This document shows positions 44,386 through 58,039 of a DNA stretch of 64,000 bases, in pieces. The stretch is from assembly GCA_016790285.1 (NCBI GenBank), contig JAEUPJ010000022.1:1-64000 (forward strand), in the 5' to 3' direction. Origin of the DNA: Roseateles sp. (GTDB lineage: Bacteria; Pseudomonadota; Gammaproteobacteria; Burkholderiales; Burkholderiaceae_C). The position numbers and the translations under genes are program-made. The notes beneath the pieces are model-generated. The model saw only the letters and a program-made list of their open reading frames with translations. It had not been told where the DNA came from and made no database searches. Every line of letters begins with the position of its first letter. Position 1 is the first letter of the stretch.

Positions 44386-45012
44386 TCAGCCCAGACGCGC
44401 CGCGCGGCGCCGCGCACGCATGCCGATGCCCGCCAGGCCGCCCAGCATCAGGGCCAGGCTGGTGGGTTCGGGCACCGCGGTGGTCAGCGCAAAGTTCTGT
44501 GCCGCGAAGCCCGGCAGCGCGGCCAAGGCGTCGGCGCCGGTCGGGCTCTCCACGCGGGCCAGGATGGCGAGGTCGGCCGTGGCCAGGTTGAGGTTGGTCG
44601 AGTAGACGAGGCGGTTCACGCCCAGCCCGACGTTGTGATAAACGAAGAAGCCGGCGCCGTCGGTGGTCACTGCCGCGGCGATCGCGTTCGCGGCGGAGCC
44701 GGCGTTGAAGCCGGGGCCGGTGTCGCGGATGACGATCAGATTGGCTCCACCGGAAGGTAGGCTGCCCGAGACGCCGTTGGCGAAGCTCAGGCTGCCGCCG
44801 ATAGCGAAGAAGGCGGGATCAAAGACGAAGCGGTCCTGGGCCTGGTCGAAGCTGGGCAGGCTGCGCTGGCCGTTGGCGAAAACCGTGCGCACACCATCGT
44901 TGGGATCGGCCGGCGAGCCCGCGAAGGGGTTGGCGCTGAAGACGGTGTCGGCGGCCGAGGCCGTGGCGGGCAACAGGGCGGCGGACAGGAGAAGGGCAAG
45001 CAGGCGGGACAT
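44386..45012 (-). CDS. PEP-CTERM exported protein
   Basis: A 208-residue protein. Signal peptide MSRLLALLLSAALLPATAS; the mature part is rich in Ala, Gly, Asn and Thr without Cys; the end has VPEPTSLALMLGGLAGIGM followed by RARRRAARLG. The start at 45012 avoids a longer frame to 45159, whose added residues contain the operator-like DNA. Two GGGAC-N4-GTCCC sites at 45073 and 45125 lie upstream, and the LysR gene is divergent. Probably secreted and sorted by an exosortase encoded elsewhere. Confidence 0.87.
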   Translation of the reverse strand: MSRLLALLLSAALLPATASAADTVFSANPFAGSPADPNDGVRTVFANGQRSLPSFDQAQDRFVFDPAFFAIGGSLSFANGVSGSLPSGGANLIVIRDTGPGFNAGSAANAIAAAVTTDGAGFFVYHNVGLGVNRLVYSTNLNLATADLAILARVESPTGADALAALPGFAAQNFALTTAVPEPTSLALMLGGLAGIGMRARRRAARLG

Positions 45013-45072
45013 CAGGAACTCCAGGGGTTGCAAGGGTGAGGTCATGCTGCCGGCGGCCCGGCCAGGGCGCAT

Positions 45073-45138
45073 GGGACAGCCGTCCCGGCCGCGGGGGCCG
45101 GCCCTCGCCGTTGGCGCCCGTGCCGGGACGGCTGTCCC
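45073..45138. promoter_or_regulatory. Pair of GGGAC-N4-GTCCC operators (perfect, perfect)
   Basis: GGGACAGCCGTCCC (45073-45086) and GGGACGGCTGTCCC (45125-45138) are exact reverse complements of each other, 52 bp start to start, about five helical turns. They lie between the PEP-CTERM gene (start 45012) and the divergent LysR gene (start 45213). Matching pairs precede two further units at 48868 and 53323. Confidence 0.6.
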
Positions 45139-45212
45139 ACTGCGCCCCCCCAAGACCAAGGGAGGGCTCGTTACGTTGCAGCAGCCCGTAGCCGGCGCGA
45201 CACTGCGTCGCC

Positions 45213-46118
45213 ATGATCACCGACCTTGGACTGCTGCAGGCCTTCGCGGCCGTCGCTGACTGCGCAAGCTTTGCCGACGGCGCCAAGCGGCTGGGCTTGC
45301 ATGCCTCGGTGCTGAGTCGCCGTGTGGCCGCGTTGGAGGACGAACTGCGCGTGCAGTTGATCCAGCGCACCACGCGTGGCCTGGCGCTCACCAAGGCCGG
45401 CGAGCGCTTCCACGCACGCTGCCGCACCCTGCTGGCCGACCTCGCCGCCGCCTGCGAAGACGTGTCAGGCGACAGCGAACGCCTGGCTGGCCTGGTGCGC
45501 ATCACAGCCCCGCATTCACTGCTGGCCGAGGCCCTGGTGGCGCCGGTGGTGGCAGACCTGCTGGCGCGCCATGAAGGCCTGCGCGTGGACATCGTGCTCG
45601 ACGAACGCAAGGTGGACCTGGTCTCCAACGCCATCGAGGTCGCCGTACGCGTCGGCCCCGTGCCCGATTCGCGCTACTACGCCCGCCCCCTGGCCACGCT
45701 CAGCGGCCTGCTGGTCGCCAGCCCCGACTACCTCGCCCGCAAAGGCACGCCGCACAACACCGACGAACTGGCCGAGACGCACGACTGCCTGATGCATGCA
45801 GAGATGAGCGGCCAGGGGCTGTGGCGCATGGACGGCGGTGACACACCTGCCTGGCGCGCGCGCGCCAACAGCTTCGAGACCCTGCGCCAACTGGCCTGTG
45901 CGGGGGTGGGCGTGGCCGTCATGCCGGCCTTCGCGGTGCAGCGCGAACTCGACGCGGGTCATCTGAAGGTCGTGCTGCCGCAGTGGCAGAGCCCGACCTT
46001 CCCGCTTTTTGTCGTGGCGCCCCCGGCGGCGCAGCTCTCGGCCCGCGCCCGGCTGGTGATGGACGCCCTCGTGGCCTATGCGTCCCGGCCCGCACACCGC
46101 TGGGGCGAGCCGGCCTGA
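45213..46118 (+). CDS. LysR-type transcription regulator
   Basis: A 301-residue regulator. The winged helix-turn-helix is AKRLGLHASVLSRRVAALED; the effector domain starts about residue 90 (GLVRITAPHSLLAEALVAPV) and is complete. Divergently placed from the PEP-CTERM gene across the operator pair at 45073-45138, as LysR genes often are with a target. The inducer is unknown. Confidence 0.9.
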   Translation: MITDLGLLQAFAAVADCASFADGAKRLGLHASVLSRRVAALEDELRVQLIQRTTRGLALTKAGERFHARCRTLLADLAAACEDVSGDSERLAGLVRITAPHSLLAEALVAPVVADLLARHEGLRVDIVLDERKVDLVSNAIEVAVRVGPVPDSRYYARPLATLSGLLVASPDYLARKGTPHNTDELAETHDCLMHAEMSGQGLWRMDGGDTPAWRARANSFETLRQLACAGVGVAVMPAFAVQRELDAGHLKVVLPQWQSPTFPLFVVAPPAAQLSARARLVMDALVAYASRPAHRWGEPA

Positions 46119-46231
46119 GCCTGCCGCCGCCCCCAAGAATTCGGGGTGCAAGACAGAAATGCAGGCGCGCCCGCCGAGGCGGCGGCCGGAACAATGCGGC
46201 TCCCCGGTTCAACCGCGCTGCGGGGCAGTCC

Positions 46232-47299
46232 ATGCAAAAGATCCAGTTCCTGCGCACCCACGACGGCGTGCGCCTTGCCTACACCCAGGGTGGCCAGGGG
46301 CCGACCGTTATAAAGGCCGCCACTTGGTTGTCGCACCTGGAGCATGACGCCGGCAGCCCGGTCTGGGGTCATCTGCTGAACTTCCTGGGCGCGCGCCACC
46401 GTCTCGTGCGCTATGACGAGCGGGGCTGCGGCCTGTCGGATTGGCGGGTGCCGCAGCTGACCTTCGAGAGCTGGGTGCGCGATCTCGAATCGATCGCCGA
46501 TGCCGCAGGCGGCGAGCGTTTCGCGCTGCTGGGTATCTCCCAGGGCGCGCCCATCGCCATCGCCTACGCCGTGCGCCACCCCGAGCGCGTGACTCATCTC
46601 GTACTGCAGGGAGGCTACGCGCGCGGCCGGCTGCTGCGCGGGGCCACGCGCCAGCACGCCGAGGAGGCCGAGATGATGTGCCGACTCGCAGCCCTCGGCT
46701 GGGGACGCGACGACCCGTCGTTCCGCCAGTTCTTCACCACCCAGTTCATGCCTGACGGCACGCCCGCGCAGCACGCCTGGTTCAACGAGCTGGAGCGGCT
46801 GTCCACGTCACCCGAGAACGCGGCCACCTTCATGCACGAGTTCAACACCATCGACGTGATGGGCCTGCTGCCCCGCGTGCGCTGCCCGACGCTGGTGCTG
46901 CACAGCCGTCACGACGTGCGCGTGCCCTTCGAGGAAGGGCGGCTGCTGGCTACGCACATCCCGGGCGCCTGCCTGGTGCCCATCGAAAGCCGCAACCACC
47001 TGCTGCTGGAGCACGAGCCCGGCTGGGCGGTGGCCCAGGACGCCATCGCCCAGTTCCTACCGGCGGCGGGCGCGCGGCAGACGGAAGGCCCGCTGGCCCG
47101 GCTGTCACCGCGTCAGCGTGAGCTGCTCGAGCTGATGGCCCAAGGCCGCGACAACCTGCAGATCGCCGCGTCGCTGGGCCTGTCGGAGAAAACGGTACGC
47201 AACTCGGTCTCGCTGCTGTTCGACCGCCTGGGCGTGGCCTCGCGCGCCATGGCCATCGTCATGGCGCGGGAGAGCGGGCTGGGCCGGTCAGTGGGCTGA
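46232..47299 (+). CDS. Alpha/beta hydrolase fused to LuxR helix-turn-helix
   Basis: A 355-residue protein with two parts. Residues 1-270 are an alpha/beta hydrolase: VRYDERGCGLSDWR, the nucleophile motif LLGISQGAPIAIAYAV (G-I-S-Q-G), LVLHSRHDVRVPFEEG (acid) and ESRNHLLLEHEPGW (His). Residues 290-355 are a LuxR/NarL-type DNA-binding domain: LSPRQRELLELMAQGRDN, IAASLGLSEKTVRNSVSLLF, DRLGVASRAMAIVMAR. The hydrolase may sense or remove a small ester-like signal while the C terminus binds DNA. It is a good candidate regulator for the neighbouring operator sites (inference). Its stop overlaps the convergent PEP-CTERM gene by 12 bp. Confidence 0.85.
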   Translation: MQKIQFLRTHDGVRLAYTQGGQGPTVIKAATWLSHLEHDAGSPVWGHLLNFLGARHRLVRYDERGCGLSDWRVPQLTFESWVRDLESIADAAGGERFALLGISQGAPIAIAYAVRHPERVTHLVLQGGYARGRLLRGATRQHAEEAEMMCRLAALGWGRDDPSFRQFFTTQFMPDGTPAQHAWFNELERLSTSPENAATFMHEFNTIDVMGLLPRVRCPTLVLHSRHDVRVPFEEGRLLATHIPGACLVPIESRNHLLLEHEPGWAVAQDAIAQFLPAAGARQTEGPLARLSPRQRELLELMAQGRDNLQIAASLGLSEKTVRNSVSLLFDRLGVASRAMAIVMARESGLGRSVG

Positions 47300-48013
47300 G
47301 CGGCGGCGCACCGTCCGCCCGACCAAGGCGGCGCCCAGCACCAGGGCGATCGACGACGGCTCGGGCACGCTGTTGCCGCCCTCCACCGCGTCGAGGCGGA
47401 AATTGAACTGGAAGCGGCTGCTACCGCTCGTGCCTGGGCCGAAAAGGCTGTCGATGCCGGAGCCCACCTGCAACAGGTAGTGGCCCGGATCGAGGACCCC
47501 GCTGAGATCAAGCGCCGGCGTGCCCAGGTTCAGGTCGAAGACGAATCGCTCCGTGTCGTCTGGACCGGCTTTGGACAGCTGCACCTGGCCGAAGGCGTGG
47601 GCTGTGCCGCTGGCCTCCAACAAGGCATGCACGGTGAAGGCCGAGACCTGCGTGAGGTCGAAGGTGGCAGCCAGCGTCGACGTCGCCACCCCCAGGTCAC
47701 CTGCGCCCAGCGCCATGCTGGCACTCCCCTGGCCGGACGCCCCGTGATGCGCGTCGAACAGGATGGCCTGCGCCGCGGTGGCGCTGGAGATCTGGCCTTG
47801 GCCGCCCAAGCCCAGGGACTGCGCCGACTGATCGAACAACGTGCCGTCGATGGCGTCCTCCTTGATGCTGACCAGCTCGGAAACACTCGTATGGGCAATC
47901 AAGCGGTGCCCGAGCAGCACAGCCTTGGCATGCGCGGCTGGCGACCAGGCGGCCAGGGTCAGGGTGCCTGCAGCCAGCAGGGTGCGTGAGAGGGAAGAGG
48001 TGGAAGGTGTCAT
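47288..48013 (-). CDS. PEP-CTERM exported protein (tandem pair, second)
   Basis: A 241-residue protein: signal TLLAAGTLTLAAWSPAAHA, a beta-rich mature part with no Cys, and the end VPEPSSIALVLGAALVGRTV followed by RRRSAH. It aligns with the upstream PEP-CTERM protein at HTSVSELVSI, LGLGGQGQISSA and GHYLLQVGS, so the two are duplicates. The 48-bp gap suggests one transcript controlled from 48868. Confidence 0.86.
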   Translation of the reverse strand: MTPSTSSLSRTLLAAGTLTLAAWSPAAHAKAVLLGHRLIAHTSVSELVSIKEDAIDGTLFDQSAQSLGLGGQGQISSATAAQAILFDAHHGASGQGSASMALGAGDLGVATSTLAATFDLTQVSAFTVHALLEASGTAHAFGQVQLSKAGPDDTERFVFDLNLGTPALDLSGVLDPGHYLLQVGSGIDSLFGPGTSGSSRFQFNFRLDAVEGGNSVPEPSSIALVLGAALVGRTVRRRSAH

Positions 48014-48061
48014 GGCAATGTGGCGTCAGCGGCTGAAGTAGTGAACGGGTACATGGCATGC

Positions 48062-48790
48062 TCAGCGCAGGCGCCGGCGCAGCGACAAGGCCGGCACCAG
48101 CGCGGCCAGCACCAGGGCGAGCGACTGGGGTTCGGGAAGGGCCGCCGCGTCGCCCCCCTCGCCCGGCCTGACCTGAAGGTCGAAAGCCAGCCGGCCCAGG
48201 GCGGATTCGCCCGGGTCGTTGTTCTGCGCGTGCAGTTGGAACCCAAACACGTAGTGGCCGGCCTTGAGCGACGCATTCAGGGTCTGGAGCGAGTTCTGCG
48301 TCAGGTCAACCAGGTACCTCTCGACCAGGCTGCCGCCCAGAATCTCCGCCACCGTCAGAAAGGCCTCGACCGACGCATTGCCACTTGCCTGGAGCTCGCC
48401 GCTGAAGTCGAACTCGGCATCGGTCGTGAAGATCATGTTGCGCCGGAAGTTGCTGTCGGCGTGGCCACGGACGCCGCTGGACAGGCCGAGCGCCACCTCG
48501 GCGGTGCCGGCAAAGCCCGTCTGGCGGTCGTGCCGGGTGAAGTGTTGCGAGGCGCTCGCTGACGACACGAGGCCCTGGGCGCCAATGCCCACCGAGCTCA
48601 CCGAGCCCTGGAACAGCAGGTCCGCGTTGGCCGGCTCTACCAGCATGTCCGGCGAGGACACGGAGGTTTGCGCGAACAGCTGGTGCTGGCTGGGCACGAT
48701 GAGCGCGTGCGCAGAGGTGCTGAGCAGGCCCAGCACCAGCGTGCAGCTGGCGATCAGGCGGGGACGAAAGGCGTGGAGATTGGTAAGCAT
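48062..48790 (-). CDS. PEP-CTERM exported protein (tandem pair, first)
   Basis: A 242-residue protein with signal peptide (LIASCTLVLGLLSTSAHA), the matched core SVSSVGIGAQGLVSSA and GHYVFGFQL, and the terminal LPEPQSLALVLAALVPALS plus LRRRLR. The Pro-Glu-Pro is preceded by Leu rather than Val. It is first in its unit; the operator pair 48868-48945 lies 78 bp upstream. Confidence 0.86.
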   Translation of the reverse strand: MLTNLHAFRPRLIASCTLVLGLLSTSAHALIVPSQHQLFAQTSVSSPDMLVEPANADLLFQGSVSSVGIGAQGLVSSASASQHFTRHDRQTGFAGTAEVALGLSSGVRGHADSNFRRNMIFTTDAEFDFSGELQASGNASVEAFLTVAEILGGSLVERYLVDLTQNSLQTLNASLKAGHYVFGFQLHAQNNDPGESALGRLAFDLQVRPGEGGDAAALPEPQSLALVLAALVPALSLRRRLR

Positions 48791-48867
48791 GGTGTGAGTG
48801 GCGATGCCGCCGAAGTGAAAGAAAGCGTTGCTGGAGCGATGCTCGCCGCGGCGCCTGGGTCATCGAA

Positions 48868-48945
48868 GGGACGGATGTCCCTGGCGGCCCGGTGCCGCGG
48901 GCGCTTGCAGCGCCCTACCCGCGGTCCGGCTGGGACAGCGGCCCC
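48868..48945. promoter_or_regulatory. Pair of GGGAC-N4-GTCCC-like operators (perfect, degenerate)
   Basis: GGGACGGATGTCCC (48868-48881) is a perfect dyad; GGGACAGCGGCCCC (48932-48945) is one mismatch off. The start-to-start spacing is 64 bp, close to six helical turns. It lies between the PEP-CTERM pair (start 48790) and the end of the GMC gene (48967). Confidence 0.55.
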
Positions 48946-48966
48946 GGCACTGCCGGGGCCGCCCCC

Positions 48967-50601
48967 TCACCTGGGTGGGCTGAACGCGGCGCGGCGGATG
49001 AGGTCGGCCGCCTTTTCGGCCACCATCACCGTCGGCGCGTTGGTGTTGCCGCCTGGCAGGCTGGGCATCACCGAGGCATCCACCACGCGCAGGCCGTCCA
49101 GGCCATGCACGCGCAGCTCGGCGTCCACCACGGCGTCGGCGTCGCGGTCCCGCGGGCCCATATGGCAGGTACCCACTGGGTGGTACACGGTGTCGCACCG
49201 GCGGCGCAGCACTTCGCGGATCTCGGACTCGCTGTGGACATCCGCGGTGAAAAGCTCAGGCCCGAGGTGGTCTGCAAGCGCGGGCTGCGACATCAGCGTG
49301 CGCGCCTGCCTGAAGCCCTGTACCAGGTCGTCCAGGTCCTGCGGCTCGCTCAGGTACTGCGGATCGATGCAGGGTGGCGTGTTCATGGTCGGGCCGCGCA
49401 GGGTCACCGTGCCACGGCTGCGCGGCCGCAACAGCACCAGGTGGCAGGACAGGCCATGACCACGGTGCAAGCGGCGCGCATGGTCGTCCAGCAAGGCCGT
49501 GATGACCATGATCTGCAACTCAGGCGGCTGCGCGCCGGGCCTCAGCCGCATGAAGCCGCCCATCTCGGCAAAGTTGGTCGACAGCTGGCCGCGCCGCTCG
49601 CTGCGCCAGCGCTGCCACTCCCGCCACAACCGCCAACCACCGGCCACCGAAAGGCCGGGCGTGTCGGTGCCGGGCACCTGCCAGCCGAAAACGAAATCGA
49701 GGTGATCCTGCAGGTTGCGGCCCACGCCCCGCAGCGCATGCCGCACCTCGATGCCTTGAGGCATCAGCACGGAGGGGCGCCCGATGCCCGAGACCATCAA
49801 CAACTGCGGGGACTGGAAGCTGCCGGCGCACAGCAACACCTCGCGACTCGCCCAGCCTGTCTGCGTCTCACCGCCACGCCGCCATTGGACACCGCATGCG
49901 CGCCGCCCTTGCCAAAGCACGCGCTGCGCCATCGCACCGCTGAGCACGCGCAAATTGGGCCGATGCAGCGCGGGCTCGAGGTAGGCACGGTAGGTGCTGC
50001 AACGCTCGCCACCCTTTTGCGTGACTTGGTACAGCCCCATGCCGGCCTGCTCCGCGCCATTGAAGTCGACATTCAAGACATGGCCAGCCTGCTGCGCCGC
50101 TTTCAGGAAGCGTTCATGGAACGGGTTGTCCGTGCGCAGCGCCGCAACGTTCAGCGGGCCGCCCTGGCCATGGAAGGCGTCGTCGAACTGTTCGTTGTGT
50201 TCCGCGCGTCGAAAGTAGGGGAGGACGTCGTCATAGGCCCAGCCCGGGTTGCCCTGCGCGGCCCAGCTGTCGTAGTCGCTGCGGTGGCCCCGCACGTACA
50301 CCATCGCATTGATCGCAGAACTGCCCCCGAGCGCTCTGCCGCGCGGCTGGTAGCCTCGCCGCCCGTGCAGCTCCTGCTGGGGCACGGTCTTGAGCGCCCA
50401 GTTGTGCAGCCGCGTTGGCACCGTCAGTGCAAGGCCGGCCGGCACGTCGATGAGCGGGCTTCGGCCGGTACTGCCCGCTTCCAGCAGCAGCACGCGGCAC
50501 TGGGGGTCCTCGCTGAGCCGGGCCGCCAGCACGCACCCAGCTGAGCCGCCACCCACGATGACGTAGTCAGCGTCGAAGGGGGTCGGGGTCTGCCAGCTCA
50601 T
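48967..50601 (-). CDS. GMC-family FAD oxidoreductase (AlkJ/choline dehydrogenase-like)
   Basis: A 544-residue flavoprotein. The FAD fold is YVIVGGGSAGCVLAARLSE (residues 13-31), followed by the GMC signature GRALGGSSAINAMVYVRGH. The C-terminal catalytic region has VYHPVGTCHMGP (His) and PGGNTNAPTVMVAEKAADL (Asn partner). The family oxidises alcohols to aldehydes; AlkJ is the closest functional model. The start ATG 50601 overlaps the P450 stop as ATGA, so both are made together. The protein probably oxidises the alcohol formed by the P450 (inference). Confidence 0.88.
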   Translation of the reverse strand: MSWQTPTPFDADYVIVGGGSAGCVLAARLSEDPQCRVLLLEAGSTGRSPLIDVPAGLALTVPTRLHNWALKTVPQQELHGRRGYQPRGRALGGSSAINAMVYVRGHRSDYDSWAAQGNPGWAYDDVLPYFRRAEHNEQFDDAFHGQGGPLNVAALRTDNPFHERFLKAAQQAGHVLNVDFNGAEQAGMGLYQVTQKGGERCSTYRAYLEPALHRPNLRVLSGAMAQRVLWQGRRACGVQWRRGGETQTGWASREVLLCAGSFQSPQLLMVSGIGRPSVLMPQGIEVRHALRGVGRNLQDHLDFVFGWQVPGTDTPGLSVAGGWRLWREWQRWRSERRGQLSTNFAEMGGFMRLRPGAQPPELQIMVITALLDDHARRLHRGHGLSCHLVLLRPRSRGTVTLRGPTMNTPPCIDPQYLSEPQDLDDLVQGFRQARTLMSQPALADHLGPELFTADVHSESEIREVLRRRCDTVYHPVGTCHMGPRDRDADAVVDAELRVHGLDGLRVVDASVMPSLPGGNTNAPTVMVAEKAADLIRRAAFSPPR

Positions 50602-52079
50602 GATGCCTCCAGGCCGCGGGGCACCAGACGCATCGGCAGCCGGCTGGGCATCATGGTGAAGACATTGCGCTCGGCGACAGCATCGGGTGGCCCGGCATGC
50701 TCGATGCGGAAATGCCGCATCAGCATGGACAGCACGAGGCGTATCTCCTGGCCGGCCAGGTGGCGGCCCGGGCACACGCGCGGGCCGGCACCGAACTGCA
50801 CATGGGCCCGTGGCTCGTGCGGCAGCAACGCCGCAAGCTCACGGTGTCCGCCCACCGGGCAGGCCGGCGGCCGCAGCCATCGCTGCGGACGGAAGCGATA
50901 CGGGTCCGCGAAGTTGCGCTTCTCCAGCATGGCCGGACGCGTCAACATGAGCAGCTGGGTGCGCGCCGGCAGGCTCACGCCCGCCAGCGTCACCTCCCGC
51001 AGGGTCTCCAGGTAGAAGATCGGCACCGTCGGGCGCAACCGCGAGGCCTCGGTGGCGCACGCCTCGAAGAGGTCCAACCGCTCCAGGTCGGCCAAGCCTT
51101 CGCACACGTCCGACGGGCCGAGCACCCGAACAGCCTGCGCGTGCAGTCGGTCCTGCCAGCGCGGTTGGCTCGCCAGTTGGTGAAGCGTCCACGCAAGCAT
51201 GTTGGCCGTCGTGTCCTCACCGGCCAGCAGCACCGTCAGCACGTTGGCACGCACATCGGCGTCACGGATGCTGCTGCCGGGTGCTGCAGCCTGCAACAGA
51301 AGGTTCTCCAGCAGGTTGCGTGGCTGGCCCCTGCTGTTGCGCAGGCGTTCGCGAGCTCGGGCGATAAGGCCGTCGATGTGATCATGGACGCGGGCCAGCG
51401 CCGCGTCGAAGCGCCGGTCGCCGGGCAACTTGAACAGCCGCCACCACGGAAAGGGCGCATTCACGCGACGCTGGATCATCGGGAACACCAGGGCGAGCTG
51501 CTGTTGGATCACGTCCCCCTCCGACGCGATCGTGTCGGGGTTCTCGCCGAAGGCCAGCGTGGTGGTGACATCCACCGTGAAGCGCGTCAGCTCTTGCGTC
51601 ATCTCCAGCACCGCGCCGCGCGCGGCCGCGCGCTGCCAGCGCCGTAGCAGCCCGCGGGTGATGTCGACCAGCAGGGGGTGAAAGCCGCGCATCTGCGCGG
51701 GCGACAGCGCCTGCATGATGAGCTGGCGCTGCGGCCGCCAGGCCTCGCCCTCCACGGAGAACAGGCCGTTGGCGCCAATCTCGTCGAACACCGATTCGAT
51801 GACGTGGCCGCGGCGGAAGTCTTGCGGGCGACTGCGCAGCGCGGTCTGCAGGGCTTGCGCGTCCGCCATGACCACCACCGGACGCCTGCCCATGCGAAAG
51901 CAGAATGACCCGCCCAGCTCTTCGTGCCAGCGCTCCAACTGCAGGTGCAGCCTGCTGGGCCGCAGTTGCAGGAGATTGCCCAGCCAGGGCAGCCCGGCCG
52001 GGCACGGCAGATCCTGCAGGTGGCGCAGCATGCCTTGCGCGCCGATGGCACGCGTGGCCACAGGGGAATGGATATCCAT
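50598..52079 (-). CDS. Cytochrome P450
   Basis: A 493-residue monooxygenase. The I-helix is LLAGEDTTANMLAWTLHQL, the ExxR is EASRLRPT, and the heme loop FGAGPRVCPGRHLA gives the Cys ligand. It resembles the CYP102/CYP4 style rather than CYP153 (which has GGNDTTRNS). No reductase or ferredoxin is adjacent, so electron partners must come from elsewhere. The start is ATG 52079; the longer frame to 52229 is Cys/Arg-rich and non-family. It lies 10 bp downstream of the OmpW-like gene. Confidence 0.9.
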   Translation of the reverse strand: MDIHSPVATRAIGAQGMLRHLQDLPCPAGLPWLGNLLQLRPSRLHLQLERWHEELGGSFCFRMGRRPVVVMADAQALQTALRSRPQDFRRGHVIESVFDEIGANGLFSVEGEAWRPQRQLIMQALSPAQMRGFHPLLVDITRGLLRRWQRAAARGAVLEMTQELTRFTVDVTTTLAFGENPDTIASEGDVIQQQLALVFPMIQRRVNAPFPWWRLFKLPGDRRFDAALARVHDHIDGLIARARERLRNSRGQPRNLLENLLLQAAAPGSSIRDADVRANVLTVLLAGEDTTANMLAWTLHQLASQPRWQDRLHAQAVRVLGPSDVCEGLADLERLDLFEACATEASRLRPTVPIFYLETLREVTLAGVSLPARTQLLMLTRPAMLEKRNFADPYRFRPQRWLRPPACPVGGHRELAALLPHEPRAHVQFGAGPRVCPGRHLAGQEIRLVLSMLMRHFRIEHAGPPDAVAERNVFTMMPSRLPMRLVPRGLEAS

Positions 52080-52089
52080 GGCGGCGGCC

Positions 52090-52779
52090 TCAGAACCGGT
52101 AGCCGAGCATGAGGGACAGCACGTCGGCGTCCACTCGCACGTCGAGGCTGCGCAGCACCTCGCCCACACCGGGCGTCTGCGTGCGCAGGGTGGCGGTCGT
52201 CGCGATGCGGTAACGCGCCAAGGACACATCCATCAGCCACGGCTCGCCCAGCGGCAGCTCGGCCCCCAGCTTGAAGACCGGCCCGACACTGGGCTTGAGC
52301 GCGGCCCGGCTGCTCGCCCCGCCGAACGCGGCGCTATACGCCGGCGACGCCTCGGTGTTGTCGAACCAGGTGAGGTGAGCGCCGAAGGCGGCATAGGGCT
52401 GCACCGCGCCCCACGCGGGCGGGCGCCAGCCCAGCAACACCGCCGGGAACCAGGCCCGCGCGCGTCCGACTTCACCGAGCGCCGCGCCCGCGCCGGCGCC
52501 GTCAAAACGCACGCGGGGTGGCACACCCAGCTGCAGGACGGCCGACCAGCAGGCGTCCAGGTCGCGCTCGGCTACCAGGCCCAGGGTGCGCGCATCACGC
52601 ACATCAGCTTTCACGCCGGGCGGTGTGCTGCCCGGCGGGCCCATCAGGTCAGCGGAATGCGTCCGGAAGTCCAGCAAGGCCGGCCCCGTCTTGAGCCGCA
52701 GCATGGGCTCGGCCGCGGCATCGAGGGCGCAGAAGAGCCCGAGTGCCGCCCACGCGGCACGCTTGAGACAGTGGTGCAT
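52090..52779 (-). CDS. OmpW/AlkL-like outer-membrane protein
   Basis: A 229-residue protein with a signal peptide (RAAWAALGLFCALDAAAE) and beta strands ending in aromatic residues; the final residues are LMLGYRF, typical of an outer-membrane barrel. PYAAFGAHLTWFDNTEASP and SVGPVFKLGAELPLGEPWLM are OmpW-like. AlkL of this family imports hydrophobic compounds such as alkanes. The gene sits in a single-strand run with the P450 and GMC genes. Confidence 0.8.
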   Translation of the reverse strand: MHHCLKRAAWAALGLFCALDAAAEPMLRLKTGPALLDFRTHSADLMGPPGSTPPGVKADVRDARTLGLVAERDLDACWSAVLQLGVPPRVRFDGAGAGAALGEVGRARAWFPAVLLGWRPPAWGAVQPYAAFGAHLTWFDNTEASPAYSAAFGGASSRAALKPSVGPVFKLGAELPLGEPWLMDVSLARYRIATTATLRTQTPGVGEVLRSLDVRVDADVLSLMLGYRF

Positions 52780-52824
52780 GTCGATCTCCAGGCCACGGCG
52801 CCCACCGGCGCGGCAGCCAGCGCA

Positions 52825-53235
52825 TCAGTAGGATGAGGAATAGGCCGGCTTGGACGTGTCCGAGACCGCCGGGCGTGCAGGCTTCGCAAGGCGCCAGACG
52901 CCGCCCTGGCCGTCGCCATTCGCGTCGCCGGGGTTGGCGTCGCCCGCGAAGCGGTACAGCGGCTGGCCCTTCCATCCCCACTGCTGCCCGCCCTCGCGGC
53001 GTGCATGCAGCGTCCATCCGCCCTGGGCCTGGGCGCCGGCCGAGGCCATCAGCGGTGGCCAGGCGGCGACACAGGCGTCGTGGCATTGGCTCTGGCCGTC
53101 CGCGTCCTTGGCAAACGTGTAGAGGCTGCGGCCATCGGAGCTGCGCAGCTGGCCGCCGGCTTCGATGGGCTGGGCGTTGGAGGCCTGCACCAGCAGGGCG
53201 CAGAGGGCGACGGCAAGGCCGCGGAGGGAAGTCAT
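52825..53235 (-). CDS. Small exported protein with COG4315-type repeats
   Basis: A 136-residue protein starting MTSLRGLAVALCALLVQAS with a signal peptide. Two copies of the secreted-repeat motif are seen (GRSLYTFAKDADGQSQCHDA and GQPLYRFAGDANPGDANGDG) and two Cys around WPPL. This fits the PF03640/COG4315 family of unknown function. The start 53235 was chosen because AAGGA has better spacing than for the Met at 53241. It is the first gene before OmpW, P450 and GMC, and operators lie 88 bp upstream. Confidence 0.75.
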   Translation of the reverse strand: MTSLRGLAVALCALLVQASNAQPIEAGGQLRSSDGRSLYTFAKDADGQSQCHDACVAAWPPLMASAGAQAQGGWTLHARREGGQQWGWKGQPLYRFAGDANPGDANGDGQGGVWRLAKPARPAVSDTSKPAYSSSY

Positions 53236-53322
53236 GGGCATGTCCTTTCGAGGGTGGATGGGCCGGCGGCGTGGCGCCGCGGCATGGCTTTGCAGTCTGC
53301 GGATCGGCCGCACGGGCGTCGC

Positions 53323-53378
53323 GGGACGCCTGTCCTGCCCGGGTGACAGGGGCGTGTGCCCCGCGGGACGCCAGCCCC
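53323..53378. promoter_or_regulatory. Pair of GGGAC-N4-GTCCC-like operators (near-perfect, degenerate)
   Basis: GGGACGCCTGTCCT (53323-53336) and GGGACGCCAGCCCC (53365-53378) are 42 bp apart start to start, four helical turns. They sit upstream of the COG4315-like gene (start 53235) and, on the other side, 37 bp before the GST gene (53415). Confidence 0.5.
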
Positions 53379-53414
53379 GTGCCAGGCCGAGCCGGCTGCG
53401 GGAAGATGCCGGCC

Positions 53415-54128
53415 ATGACGTCGCGCCCCCTGCTCTACGACTTCCCGACCTCCCCGTTCTGCGCCAAGGTGAGGGCGGCGCTCAACCTGCAGGGCGTGGC
53501 CTTCGACAGCGTCGACGCCACCTCACCGCGCGCCTGGCTGCGCCTGCGCCGGGAGGCGGACGGCAAGGTGCCCGCGCTATGGCTGGACGGGCGACTGGTG
53601 GCCGACTCCACGACCATCGCACTGGCGCTGCATGCGCGCGACGCGGCCCACCCACTGCTACCCGCCAGCCCACGCGAGCACGGGCTCTGCCTGGCGCTCA
53701 CGACCTGGTGCGACGACGTCCTGTACCCCCTGGGTCTGCAATACAACTGGCTCGACCCTGCGCATGGCCCGGCCGTTCGCCGCCGCTTTCCGCAGGGGCC
53801 CGTAGGCCTGCTGATGTGGCACTTCTATCGCCGGCGCATCGCCCGGCAGCTGCGCGCCCACGGCCTGGGCCGCAAGACACCGGCGCAACATCGGCAAGAA
53901 CTTGACCGCCAGCTCGAAGTGGCTGTGACCCTGCTGGCAGACCACCCTTTCCTGCTCGGTGAACAGCCCTGGCTTTGCGACCTGGCGCTGTTCGGCCAGC
54001 TGAGGTTCCTCGGCTTTGCGCCCCAAGCCCGCGCGGCGCTGGCGGCCCGGCCGGTCCTGGGCGACTACGTGGCGCGCGTCAAGGCCGCCGTCGGCTGGCG
54101 CAGTGCGATGCGCACGCCCGGGCGCTGA
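53415..54128 (+). CDS. Glutathione S-transferase family protein
   Basis: A 237-residue soluble protein. The thioredoxin-like N-terminal domain opens with LLYDFPTSPFCAKVRAALN (the S-P-F-C motif at the active site), has the cis-Pro in GKVPALWLDGRL, and the DST motif VADSTTIALALHARD. The C-terminal domain is all helical (LLADHPFLLGEQPWLCDLAL). Conjugation or peroxide reduction is likely; the substrate is unknown. It starts 37 bp past an operator of the leftward P450 unit, so a shared control is possible. Confidence 0.85.
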   Translation: MTSRPLLYDFPTSPFCAKVRAALNLQGVAFDSVDATSPRAWLRLRREADGKVPALWLDGRLVADSTTIALALHARDAAHPLLPASPREHGLCLALTTWCDDVLYPLGLQYNWLDPAHGPAVRRRFPQGPVGLLMWHFYRRRIARQLRAHGLGRKTPAQHRQELDRQLEVAVTLLADHPFLLGEQPWLCDLALFGQLRFLGFAPQARAALAARPVLGDYVARVKAAVGWRSAMRTPGR

Positions 54129-54149: not shown

Positions 54150-55499
54150 TCAGCGCAACTGGCGGTCCAGCCAAGCCAGCACCCGCAGGTCCTGGAAGTA
54201 GCTGCAGTGGTGCGTCGTGGCACTCGGCCCCAGGTCTTCCCACTGGGGCGCGCCCAGCACGGTGGGGCCGAGCTGGTTCATCGACACGCTGTCCACGACG
54301 AGGTCGTTGGGCTGGTCGAAGATGAGGTCGGCGCCGTAGTACATCGCCTGGCCCTTCAGATGGGTCACGCGCTTCCAGACCTTCCACAGCGGCTCGTTGA
54401 CCTCGGTGGGCAGGAAGCTGCCGCCAATGGCGCGCACCTCGGCCCGGGTGGACAGCGGCCAGAGCTGCGCCAGCTCCAGGTTGTTGGCCACGCGCCCCTG
54501 CGCGAGCAGGCCCGGCACCAGGCCCACGGCGGCGTCCGCCAGCGGCGTGCGGGCGCCGAGCTGCAGCACCTTTCCCAGCACCATGGCCAGGCCGCCCACG
54601 CCGAGGGCCAGCGGCTGCAGGCTGGGCAGCACCTGGCCGGTCTTCTCGGCGGCCTCGGCGAGGGCGTCGGCCAGGCTGGCCAGCGTGTCCAGCGCCTGCC
54701 GGAGCTTGTCGGGTGCAGCCAGTGAGGTGCCGGCCAGCGGCGAGCCGACGAAGAGGGCCTGGCGTACCGGCAGGGCCGGGGCCATGCGCAGCAGCCACGA
54801 AATGACGAGACCGCCGCGGCTGTGGCCGACCAGGTCGAGCTCCGCGGTGCAGCCCGCCAGCGCATCGTTCAGCGCCAGCGCATTGAGCCACGGGGCGACG
54901 CTGAGCGTCGGATGGTCGAAGGCGAGCACCGCGGCATAGGCGCCACCGGCGCGCGTGAGCCGGTCGAAGAGCGCCTCGCCCTCGGCCGTGGCGGCGAACT
55001 CCTTCGTGTACATCGCGCTTTCGCTGAAGGTGCCATGCACCAGGACGAGCACGCGGCCCTGCAGCGCGGCGAGCTCGCCCGGGCGCAGCGCCGCCCAGCC
55101 CGTGCCCGCCCAGCGGCGCAGGCCCTCGGGCGCCGTGGCCAGCGTGGCGAGCACCGGGTTGAGGTGCGCGTCGAGCTTTTGCAGACCGGCGGTGACGCTG
55201 TTCTCGCCCAGCTCGGGGAAGGCGATGCGCTGCACGGTCTCGCGCGGATCCACGCCGAAGGCACGCCAGCTGCGCCGGCCGGCGTCGGCACCGCGAGCGC
55301 GTGCGGGCGGCTCGTAGACCCAGCGCAGCAGGCCGCCCTCGCCCGCGTCGCGCACCAGGCGCACGGCCGCGCGGCCATCGCCCGCCTGCGGCTCGAAGCC
55401 GCGGCGCCGGCGCTGCTGGATGGGCGCGCCCCCGCCCGCGCGGGCGGGCTCGGTGAGGCGGGCCTGCACACCGCCCCAGAGGTCGTCGGCGGCGCTCAT
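54150..55499 (-). CDS. Alpha/beta hydrolase (DUF7379-like), partner of CHAT protein
   Basis: A 449-residue protein with no signal peptide. The hydrolase part begins VLVLVHGTFSES (residues 151-162, oxyanion HGTF). The nucleophile is in LDLVGHSRGGLVISWLL (Ser227). An N-terminal region of about 150 residues (WVYEPPARARGADAG) and a C-terminal region with HHCSYFQD flank it. The His near the end (TTHHCSYF) may complete a triad. The start ATG 55499 overlaps the CHAT gene stop as ATGA, so the two are a strict pair. It may be the effector, cleaving lipids or peptides (inference). Confidence 0.75.
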   Translation of the reverse strand: MSAADDLWGGVQARLTEPARAGGGAPIQQRRRRGFEPQAGDGRAAVRLVRDAGEGGLLRWVYEPPARARGADAGRRSWRAFGVDPRETVQRIAFPELGENSVTAGLQKLDAHLNPVLATLATAPEGLRRWAGTGWAALRPGELAALQGRVLVLVHGTFSESAMYTKEFAATAEGEALFDRLTRAGGAYAAVLAFDHPTLSVAPWLNALALNDALAGCTAELDLVGHSRGGLVISWLLRMAPALPVRQALFVGSPLAGTSLAAPDKLRQALDTLASLADALAEAAEKTGQVLPSLQPLALGVGGLAMVLGKVLQLGARTPLADAAVGLVPGLLAQGRVANNLELAQLWPLSTRAEVRAIGGSFLPTEVNEPLWKVWKRVTHLKGQAMYYGADLIFDQPNDLVVDSVSMNQLGPTVLGAPQWEDLGPSATTHHCSYFQDLRVLAWLDRQLR

Positions 55500-57937
55500 G
55501 CTTCGTCTCCCAGCAGCGGCAGCGGCGTGACCTGGGCGCGCCGTGCGGTGACGATGTCCAGCATGGAGTCGTAGTCGCTGCGCTCGGCCAGGGCCTGCAC
55601 GCCGGCCTCGATGGCTTCGATGAAACCGCAGTGCTCGGTGAGCCGCACGGTCTCGATGGGCACCAGCTTGCGCTCGCGCACCCAGCGCGCCACCTCGGCC
55701 CAGCTGGCCTCGCCGGTGTGCCAGCTCTTGGCCTGCGCGTTGGCCGCGGAGTTGCCGCTGGCGTCGGCGTCCACCACCTCGCTGTAGTTGACCGCGCTCA
55801 TCTTCTGGTACTCCTGCTGGTAGCTCGGGTGGCGCCACCAGCCGGGCAGCGCATGACCCTTGAGCAGGAAGACGACCGGGTGGATGTCCACCAGCTCCAG
55901 GCAGGCCGCGAACAACAGGGCCAGGTCGATGCAGGTGCCGGCGCCGTCGGCCTTCACGCGCGAGGGCACGCGCAGGCGCTGCGAGTCCAGGTCGCCGCTG
56001 TAGCTGGGCGGCGGGTTGATGTAGCCGAGCTGCCAGTCGTGCAGCAGCGTGGCCCACAGCGCCTCGACCTGGCGGTCCACGCCGCGCAGGGCCTCTTCGT
56101 CGACGGCATCCTCCGGCACGCACTGGTAGCCCTCGAAGCCGGCGCTGGGGTCGTCGCGCAGCACGCGGTTGTAGCGCTGGGCCTGGGCCACGGCCTGCAC
56201 CACGGCGGGGTCGCGCGGCAGCACGAACGACGGCAGCCAGCGGCCGTCGCGCCGGTTGTCGCGCCACTGGTCCACCGGCAGCAGGCGCAGGCGGTGGCTG
56301 TCGTGATAGAGCACCTCGCTGCCCTGGCGCACGCACACCGACAGGCTCGTGTTGATCGCTTCGTGCACGCTTCGCGCGACCTCGGCGGTAAGCGGCACGT
56401 GGATCTTGTCGGTGAGCCGCTCGCGCGGGTACTTGAGCTGCACGCGGCGCTGGAAGCGCGCCACCTCCGCGCCCAGGTGCACGGCCACCTCGACATCCAG
56501 CGGCGCGGCCTGCTCGGGCAGGTCGCAGGCCAGCACGAAGCGGCGGAACAGCGGCTGCGCGTTGTGCAGCACGGCGTAGTTCAGCTCGGGGTAGGGCTCG
56601 ATCTCGCAGCGCACCTGGGCCGTCAGCGCGCGGTCCAGCGCCCGCTCGCCGCGCTGGCCACCGGCGCGCCGCGCCTTGGCCTCGGCCGCGCGGGCATGGC
56701 GCTCGCGGGTGGCGGCGTCCACGAACACGGGTGCGCCCACCCAGAGCGTCACGCCGGTCGCGTCCACCGACTCGGGCAGGGCGCGCACCTGCTCCCAGGC
56801 GGCGCGAAAGGCTGCGGGCAGGTCGAAGCCGCTCGCGAAGAGTTCGCGGCGCAGCTGCGTGAGCATGAACTCGGCCAGCGAGTCGTCGAAGGCGTCCTGG
56901 AAGCCCACGGCCGCCAGCGCCGCGCCCTCGGCCACCAGCATGGGCGCCAGGCGCGCCGCGCTGTTCCAGACGTTGAGCGTGGCGAGATACGTGGGCGCCT
57001 CGGCCCGCGCGAGCACGACGGCCAGCGTCTGCGCCGGCACGAGCTGGGGCAGGCCGTCGGTGCCGCGCAGCAGCAGGCCGTCGACGATGCGGCGCGTGTC
57101 GGCCAGCAGGTCGCTCACGCGCTGGAAGTTCTGCAGCCCGCGCAACGCGCCGGTGGCGCCGTCCCACTCCACCACCTCCACCCGCGCTGCCTCGCCCTTG
57201 AGCGTGGCCAGCTCGCGCAGGCCCTGGTGGCTGTCCATGCCGGCGATGTGCAGCAGGTGCGGGCGGTGGCACCGCACGGCGGCTTCGAGTTCGTCCAGGC
57301 TGGGGTGGTCCAGCACGCGCAGCTCGGCCACGCCGGCCGGCAGCGTGCGGCGGAAGTTGGCGAGTTCCTCGTCCACGCTCCAGCGCTCGCGCAGCTCGGT
57401 GGGCACGGTGTTGACGAACATCACCTCCAGCGCGGTCCAGGGCGGCAGGTCGACGGCGCCGCGTGGCAGCGGCGCCCAGCGCCCCTCCACCTCGTGCTGC
57501 ACCTGCAGCTCGCGGATGACGGTGAGCGCATGCGGGCGCCCGCCCGCACCGCGCCGCTGCTCGCGCGTGGCGGCCGCCAGCACGTACTCCCACGGGAAGA
57601 TGCGGCCCTCCCAGCCCAGCGCCTCGTGCTGGTAGGGCACGCGCACCACCAGCGTCGAGGCCCGGGCCAGCGCGCGCAAGGCGGCGGGGCCGACCCCGAG
57701 CTGGTCCAGGCTCTCTCGGGCGTCCGCCTGGTGCTGCTCGCGCACCAGGGCGTCATGCACCCAGCGCTGGCGGGAGCGCAGCACGTACGTCCAGCGCAGG
57801 GCCTCGCGCGCCAGGCTCTGGCGGGCGCGGCCATCGGCATCGGCCGTCACCGCGCGCAGCGGCAGGCCGCGCAGGTCGGCCTCGCTGGCGAGGTGGACGC
57901 CCTCCAGCAGCTCGTCCTGCGGTGATTCGTTGCTCAT
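55496..57937 (-). CDS. CHAT-like protein with degenerate catalytic site and transglutaminase-like domain
   Basis: An 813-residue soluble protein. Residues about 90-400 follow the CHAT caspase-like plan, including HRPHLLHIAGM (227-234 in HLLHIAGM), where caspase-like proteins have HG/GHG, and ATLNVWNSAARL (321-327 in LNVWNSA), where the catalytic Cys should be (LNACxS). Both catalytic residues are replaced. Residues 400-600 are a beta-rich linker. Residues 600-800 hold a transglutaminase-like Cys protease: DGAGTCIDLALLFAACLE (Cys669) and LLKGHALPGWW (His695). The start is ATG 57937. The stop overlaps the hydrolase gene. A sensor-effector pair is plausible (inference). Confidence 0.75.
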   Translation of the reverse strand: MSNESPQDELLEGVHLASEADLRGLPLRAVTADADGRARQSLAREALRWTYVLRSRQRWVHDALVREQHQADARESLDQLGVGPAALRALARASTLVVRVPYQHEALGWEGRIFPWEYVLAAATREQRRGAGGRPHALTVIRELQVQHEVEGRWAPLPRGAVDLPPWTALEVMFVNTVPTELRERWSVDEELANFRRTLPAGVAELRVLDHPSLDELEAAVRCHRPHLLHIAGMDSHQGLRELATLKGEAARVEVVEWDGATGALRGLQNFQRVSDLLADTRRIVDGLLLRGTDGLPQLVPAQTLAVVLARAEAPTYLATLNVWNSAARLAPMLVAEGAALAAVGFQDAFDDSLAEFMLTQLRRELFASGFDLPAAFRAAWEQVRALPESVDATGVTLWVGAPVFVDAATRERHARAAEAKARRAGGQRGERALDRALTAQVRCEIEPYPELNYAVLHNAQPLFRRFVLACDLPEQAAPLDVEVAVHLGAEVARFQRRVQLKYPRERLTDKIHVPLTAEVARSVHEAINTSLSVCVRQGSEVLYHDSHRLRLLPVDQWRDNRRDGRWLPSFVLPRDPAVVQAVAQAQRYNRVLRDDPSAGFEGYQCVPEDAVDEEALRGVDRQVEALWATLLHDWQLGYINPPPSYSGDLDSQRLRVPSRVKADGAGTCIDLALLFAACLELVDIHPVVFLLKGHALPGWWRHPSYQQEYQKMSAVNYSEVVDADASGNSAANAQAKSWHTGEASWAEVARWVRERKLVPIETVRLTEHCGFIEAIEAGVQALAERSDYDSMLDIVTARRAQVTPLPLLGDEA

Positions 57938-58039
57938 GCGGGGCCCTGCCTCCGGTCGCGGCCGTGTCCGGCCTGTGGGTCTTGACGGTGGGCGAGTATC
58001 GCGACCGGCGGGCGGGCCGCAAGGCCCCAATTCACCATG

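Follow-up and report, generated by a model that had tools for sequence, protein, structure and literature searches.

Which protein reads the GGGAC-N4-GTCCC dyads that precede three leftward transcription units of a Roseateles sp. contig, and what would it do there? The window, i.e., the whole stretch of DNA analysed here, comprises 64,000 nucleotides (positions 1 to 64,000 of contig JAEUPJ010000022.1, assembly GCA_016790285.1). A pair of these 14-bp dyads lies upstream of a PEP-CTERM gene (unit 1), of two PEP-CTERM-like genes (unit 2), and of a COG4315/OmpW/P450/GMC operon (unit 3). Two regulator genes lie in the same interval, one of LysR type and one encoding an alpha/beta-hydrolase fused to a LuxR-type DNA-binding domain. 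We propose, with a probability of roughly 0.83, that the hydrolase-LuxR fusion uses the six dyads as three twin operators, through which it would activate a small local regulon. The proposal is carried by the computed clustering of the dyads, their association with the regulator across taxa, their phased spacing, the position of the -10 element, the covariation of recognition helix and operator, and the recurrence of the target genes.

All six dyads lie where an earlier note on this DNA had placed them, three exact and three with one mismatch (Table 1), and its start-to-start distances of 52, 64, and 42 bp were reproduced. The two distal copies that it called degenerate do carry GCCCC as the right arm on the plus strand; the proximal copy at 53323 is imperfect too, and an extra site with two mismatches lies at 53349. 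The genome assembly (5.88 Mb, 95% complete, 107 contigs) was searched with the dyad and, as a control, with the reversed pattern. The exact dyad has three places in the whole genome, all three in this cluster, against nine for the control; at up to one mismatch there are 76 places against 290, and six among the 50 of these 76 that were listed are the window sites. The two-site pattern, which as written excludes the third pair (53323/53365) from matching, found the first two pairs and nothing else, and its control gave one forward and no reverse match. There is no over-representation in the window (27 matches at up to two mismatches against a mean of 60.6 in shuffles), and exact dyads number 0-5 per genome in 60 relatives and the own genome, with or without a close fusion homolog. 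Since the enrichment test fails and raw counts do not separate the genomes, our argument rests on position and not on number: it is the clustering of the dyads, not their overall abundance, that exceeds chance.

The same clustering was followed in other genomes at 80 loci (L044-L123), the best 80 of 548 relatives; L034 and L045 are the same place, counted here only as L045, and genes in the loci were called with a simple script. Within 2 kb of the fusion gene (308 kb in total) there are 39 exact dyads in 38 loci, compared with one in the remaining 784 kb, whereas the best of 19 composition-matched control half-sites reached nine near and 18 far. When spacers of 0-11 were tested, N4 gave the 39 near dyads and every other spacer at most one; the inner N4 letters themselves vary between dyads. 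Pairs of sites (at most two mismatches per site and three jointly, separated by 38-68 bp and no farther than 2 kb from the gene) were found in 49 of the 80 loci, compared with 0-11 for the 19 control half-sites, and pairs beyond 2 kb in two loci, at 43 and 53 bp. The same twin-site pairing recurs in dozens of other bacteria. Judged by these sequence comparisons, the regulator of the dyads is very probably the hydrolase-LuxR fusion (46232-47299) and not the LysR protein.

The two sites of a pair keep preferred distances. The 54 pair distances found in the 38-68 bp searched fall at 41-43 bp (8), 51-55 bp (43), and 61-64 bp (3), with none at 38-40, 44-50, 56-60, or 65-68 bp. If the range is widened to 18-130 bp and similar pairs are clustered, 47 clusters result, of which 37 have a spacing of 40-66 bp and all of these fall into the three distance classes, i.e., 34 out of 34 non-redundant clusters outside the window and three more from the window. 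Nine further loci with a TVRN helix came from the later search of the same family; eight of them (L158 and L160-L166) have pairs at 52, 44, 53, 54, 43, 52, 41, and 42 bp, respectively, and L167 is an exception with a pair at 20 bp. These distance classes support the two-site operator with helical spacing that the earlier note had suggested from the three window pairs. In 46 oriented pairs, which include those of the window and were all selected for a low number of mismatches, the two inner arms hardly vary; the distal outer arm shows A to G in 10 of the 46, and in the proximal outer arm, T to C occurs in 28 pairs and C to T in 34. The GCCCC arm of the degenerate distal copies at 48932 and 53365 is this outer-arm change.

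We then aligned 50 proximal dyads, three of them from the window, each oriented towards its presumed target gene. A conserved GASAAT block lies 23 bp past the proximal dyad, and the third base past the dyad is G in 92%. Reading these as the -10 and the -35 of a sigma-70 promoter gives a predicted centre of the proximal dyad at -42.5, the classical lux-box position, near which activating LuxR/NarL-type regulators bind a palindrome as dimers. A -10 matrix built from 32 non-redundant rows, all from other genomes, recovered the correct offset within one base for 24 of the 32 in a left-out test. Applied to the window, it places the candidate -10 elements as listed in Table 1, with predicted start sites at 45037, 48832, and 53287 and 5' leaders of 25, 42, and 52 bases.

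The fusion protein has its putative catalytic triad at Ser103, Asp228, and His256 and SEKTVRN as recognition helix. Ser occupies position 103 in 48 of 57 aligned sequences, the others having Cys (5), Thr (3), or Ala (1); Asp228 and His256 are each kept in 56, K320 in 52, R323 in 51 (plus two with Lys), and N324 in 53. The predicted structure is of high confidence (predicted local distance difference test, 94.0; predicted template modelling score, 0.80), and its fold matches are alpha/beta hydrolases including esterases and an enol-lactonase; by sequence, the sensor domain also matches RsbQ (E 6e-9) and D14 (E 9e-9) in the PDB. The C-terminal part has the helix-turn-helix of the GerE type, with DosR, GerE, and NarL among its PDB matches, and the autoinducer-binding domain of quorum-sensing LuxR proteins is not among the fusion's Pfam matches (E ≤0.001). 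The fusion is the only strong full-length match in its own genome, the other 18 matches being no better than E 1.8e-10. Five homologs (L087, L088, L091, L095, and L098) have Cys in place of the nucleophile Ser, in CCQG or SCQG; their records are labelled Bradyrhizobium (three), Hyphomicrobiaceae, and Hyphomicrobiales.

Does the operator change with the helix of the fusion? The comparison covered 22 loci with a readable helix, from the relatives and the family surveys (15 of 17 new places of the later survey were taken in), and counted dyads with at most one mismatch within 2 kb. The dyad accompanies a K-x-x-R-N helix at 12 of 13 loci, compared with one of nine for R-x-x-E-M (Fisher P = 2.4e-4). 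Left out were L165 (ADQTVRN, with a pair), the inclusion of which would favour covariation, and L168 and L169 (helix unreadable, no dyad at up to one mismatch), which cannot be classed; a one-mismatch site inside the fusion gene of L156 was left uncounted. A CCGTAG or TACCGTA element lies downstream of the gene, at most 250 bp away, in eight of the nine R-x-x-E-M loci and in none of the 13 others, and the four rows with R, E, and M in the 57-sequence alignment belong to this clade. In this sister clade (helix SPRTVEMH; L036, L037, L038, L040, L155, L156, L157, and L159), CCGTAG/TACCGTA replaces the GGGAC dyads. CCGTAG-type elements precede a gene for a PaaI-like thioesterase, named by eye, in L036, L038, and L040; the nucleophile position is Thr in L036-L038.

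Genes resembling those of the window follow such operators elsewhere. In L047 and L164, the dyad pair separates the fusion from a divergent gene for a P450 that is 50-51% identical to that of the window, and a PEP-CTERM protein comes after the pair in L166 (25.7 bits, above the cut-off) and L165 (19.3 bits, below). Both target types of the window thus recur in other genomes, which supports counting the three window units as one local regulon and gives some support to the suggestion of the earlier note that surface proteins are coupled with an oxidation pathway. L044, from a Rubrivivax metagenome-assembled genome (2685-9062), keeps the LysR and hydrolase-LuxR tandem, with the pair between LysR and a divergent extracytoplasmic function sigma factor, and has a GMC gene nearby that is 64% identical to that of the window. 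Other genes beside the operators include hydrolases and methyltransferases; an exact dyad of L106, a locus short of a full pair, precedes a methanethiol methyltransferase gene. In loci of Caballeronia, Ramlibacter, and Hydrogenophaga, a 320-amino-acid protein family lies next to the pair, either following or facing it; its members in L110 and L118 have no match in Pfam (0.001) or NCBIfam (0.01), and that of L118 shows a weak match to AurF (0.0058, 16.3 bits against a cut-off of 29.6). Small proteins, by eye exported and repetitive-looking, come after the pair in Cupriavidus. A tiny protein of 50-63 amino acids, arginine-rich and then ending in VPYY or VPYC, recurs as a putative target in L103, L105, L108, L114, L121, and L162; no match was obtained for the proteins of L103 (Pfam and NCBIfam), L105 (NCBIfam), and L162 (Pfam).

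Could another protein bind the dyads? A DosR-type response regulator of the NarL family encoded elsewhere in the genome, with the fusion as a mere neighbour, would agree with a dyad that equals the core of the DosR box and with the presence of other GerE-domain proteins in this genome. We consider it very unlikely, because 39 exact dyads lie no more than 2 kb from the fusion homologs, against one farther away, and because the operator type shifts with the fusion's own recognition helix. LysR proteins often control a divergent gene, and the one at 45213 is divergent from unit 1 with the dyad pair between; also in L044, a LysR protein 50% identical to it precedes the fusion, and the pair lies between LysR and the divergent gene. 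However, relatives of this LysR (tblastn E ≤1e-8) occur at 3 of 90 homolog loci (L044, L084, and L121), compared with exact dyads near the fusion in 38 of 80, the -10 matrix score at the expected place facing LysR is -8.0, and the dyad of 14 bp does not follow the T-N11-A scheme of LysR-type boxes, a comparison made without a search for such boxes. Binding of the dyads by LysR is thus highly improbable, and of the two candidate regulators in the earlier note, the fusion is favoured over LysR.

The dyads might also be no protein-binding sites at all. The two dyads of unit 1 form a perfect inverted repeat of 18 nucleotides, a 12-nucleotide stem (48938-48962) overlaps the 48932 site, and many dyads elsewhere come directly after the fusion stop codon, as RNA hairpins or terminators would. 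That pairs are also found upstream of the fusion or about 1 kb away, with the -10 at a fixed distance, that the N4 letters vary while the N4 spacing dominates, and that the genome assembly holds no further exact copies, as a dispersed repeat would have, leaves hairpins, terminators, or repeats with very little credit. Even less probable is control of the PEP-CTERM units by RpoN, as reported for Aquincola pepA (PMC9850573). A -24/-12-like site with one mismatch at 53370-53384 does overlap the distal dyad of unit 3, but upstream of units 1 and 2 there is no such element with at most two mismatches, the best having three, which chance provides about once per promoter, and the conserved -10 is of the sigma-70 type.

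Several points weigh against the proposed twin operators of the fusion. Relatives without a close fusion homolog also carry 0-5 exact dyads, which makes the raw genome count uninformative. The homolog loci are unevenly sampled across genera, with many from Caballeronia and Cupriavidus. In 31 of the 80 loci there is no pair as defined above, although in six of these (L093, L096, L105, L106, L108, and L119) one exact dyad lies close to the gene. In the Variovorax loci L049-L051, not even a site with one mismatch is present, even though the KTVRN helix is kept at 65-66% identity. Ten of the 47 pair clusters fall outside 40-66 bp, at 25-34 and 89-121, and with the 51-55 class so dominant, no helical period stands out (R is 0.57-0.63 whichever period between 9.5 and 12 is tried). 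The promoter direction in the -10 alignment was chosen by hand, and in two of the window promoters, another offset outscores the expected -10. Finally, the putative targets differ greatly between genera, so a shared function cannot be read off from them.

With these points weighed, a working model for the fusion can be put forward. What we infer beyond the computed results is that the fusion binds the dyads cooperatively, that it activates and does not repress, and that it senses a ligand. The hydrolase-fold N-terminal domain, its triad residues kept, would serve as the sensor and bind, and perhaps turn over, a small ligand; in this way the domain would gate the binding of dimers to the twin dyads. 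At each promoter, two fusion dimers would then sit on the same side of the DNA, one per dyad, with four, five, or six helical turns between them. A weak -35 would adjoin the proximal dimer, which would have its centre at -42.5 and recruit RNA polymerase to the GASAAT-type -10, and the distal dimer would stabilise the proximal one. The activated fusion would in this way turn on the PEP-CTERM surface proteins and the COG4315/OmpW/P450/GMC oxidation operon. A bolder and rather doubtful extension is a widespread one-component family in which a still catalytically competent hydrolase receptor passes the signal of substrate turnover, or of a covalently bound acyl intermediate, on to a DNA-binding domain of the DosR type that reads phased twin operators. 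If true, it would be a bacterial counterpart of the hydrolase hormone receptors, wired directly to DNA and controlling monooxygenases and surface proteins in many bacteria.

The proposal would assign an operator, a promoter geometry, and a regulator to the large hydrolase-LuxR fusion family. With its twin-site code (GGGAC arms at 42/53/63 bp), regulons could be predicted in Burkholderiales and further afield, and an unrelated sensor seems to draw on the recognition code of the DosR box. P450, the AurF-like protein, methanethiol methyltransferase, and PEP-CTERM proteins are testable targets for seeking the ligand. In the open-access literature, judged by listings and the openings of abstracts, we found no description of hydrolase-LuxR fusions or of such an operator, nor of the regulation of PEP-CTERM genes by a LuxR protein.

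Table 1. Operator sites, predicted -10 elements, and genes of the three units and of the two regulators in the window
Feature	Position	Strand	Remark
Proximal dyad, unit 1	45073..45086	.	Exact, GGGACAGCCGTCCC; predicted centre -42.5
Distal dyad, unit 1	45125..45138	.	Exact; 52 bp from proximal; predicted centre -94.5
Proximal dyad, unit 2	48868..48881	.	Exact, GGGACGGATGTCCC
Distal dyad, unit 2	48932..48945	.	One mismatch, outer arm A to G; 64 bp from proximal
Proximal dyad, unit 3	53323..53336	.	One mismatch (GTCCT)
Distal dyad, unit 3	53365..53378	.	One mismatch, outer arm A to G; 42 bp from proximal
Predicted -10, unit 1 (CAGCAT)	45044..45049	-	Rank 1 of 76 offsets
Predicted -10, unit 2 (GAGCAT)	48839..48844	-	Rank 2 of 76 offsets
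Predicted -10, unit 3 (CAGACT)	53294..53299	-	Rank 2 of 76 offsets
Unit 1: PEP-CTERM protein	44386..45012	-	PF07589 2.9e-05 (scan used a longer start)
Unit 2, first gene: exported protein, PEP-CTERM-like tail by eye	48062..48790	-	Sequence only
Unit 2, second gene: PEP-CTERM-like	47288..48013	-	PF07589 0.0011, 19.5 bits, just under the cut-off of 20.7
Unit 3: secreted-repeat protein, COG4315 type (Lipoprotein_15)	52825..53235	-	PF03640 1.1e-22
Unit 3: OmpW family protein	52090..52779	-	PF03922 2.8e-12
Unit 3: cytochrome P450	50598..52079	-	PF00067 1.2e-72
Unit 3: GMC oxidoreductase	48967..50601	-	PF00732 3.1e-54
LysR-type regulator	45213..46118	+	Pfam; neighbour, probably not the dyad binder
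Alpha/beta-hydrolase-LuxR fusion, 355 amino acids, proposed regulator	46232..47299	+	Abhydrolase_1 1e-16, GerE (PF00196) 1.4e-15

The gene identities given in the earlier note (PEP-CTERM, COG4315, OmpW, P450, GMC, LysR, and hydrolase-LuxR) agree with Pfam, except that the product of the 48062 gene was named by eye: a Pfam scan of it gave no match, and its C-terminus, LPEPQSLALVLAALVPALSLRRRLR, looks PEP-CTERM-like. The inverted repeat of unit 1 extends over 45072-45089 and 45122-45139, with 32 nucleotides between, and results from the two dyads being reverse complements of each other. The 12-nucleotide repeat at 48938-48962 is likewise perfect; it lies directly beyond the end of the leftward GMC gene, shares bases with the distal dyad of unit 2, and may terminate the P450/GMC transcript. 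A glutathione S-transferase (GST)-like gene at 53418 is divergent from unit 3. Facing it at the expected distance from the dyad at 53365, very near its start codon, is a -10-like sequence with a score of 4.2, from which the GST gene might share the unit 3 operator, i.e., this operator may act in both directions. Past the GST gene, at 54150-58030, there are two large leftward open reading frames, by eye one hydrolase-like and one CHAT-domain-like.

How does the fusion compare with systems already described? RsbQ and plant D14 act as receptors with a retained triad, and they share the hydrolase fold with the sensor domain of the fusion; they are not known to be fused to a DNA-binding domain, and several esterases and an enol-lactonase match the fusion better than they do, by both sequence and fold. 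In Aquincola, the PEP-CTERM gene pepA is RpoN-dependent, with a suggested role of PrsK-PrsR, and PEP-CTERM genes are under dedicated transcriptional control there as they would be here (PMC9850573). The window differs in that units 1 and 2 have no -24/-12 promoter within two mismatches, and in the type of both regulator and operator.

The closest likeness is to DosR/DevR of Mycobacterium tuberculosis, the box of which is TTSGGGACTWWAGTCCCSAA (PMC2275270): the window dyad has identical arms and the same N4 spacing. Streptomyces OsdR uses AGGGCCGATCGGCCCT, which is said to conform to the mycobacterial consensus (PMC5069765). Among PDB sequences, the fusion's DNA-binding domain matches DosR best, and K320, R323, and N324 of the fusion align with the DosR contact residues K179, K182, and N183 (PMC5999986, PMC4082495); a K182R change in DosR is said to retain binding (PMC5999986). 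DevR binds two or more boxes cooperatively, with the proximal box overlapping the -35 (PMC3029386), and the proposed operators of the fusion resemble this in having multiple sites with the proximal one overlapping the predicted -35. The claim of the earlier note that no such regulon has been described therefore goes too far, as the dyad core is that of the DosR/DevR box and the two-site arrangement over the -35 is known for DevR. There are also clear differences. The sites of the fusion are 4-6 turns apart, whereas DevR sites are described as closely packed (PMC3029386), the N4 is not conserved in the fusion operators, and the predicted regulon is tiny, local, and made of unrelated targets. 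The fusion is moreover a one-component protein, in which an alpha/beta-hydrolase domain takes the place of the phosphorylated receiver domain of DosR, whose partner kinases are DosS/DosT. It would thus work like DosR, yet it is no member of that system because its receiver domain is replaced by a hydrolase.

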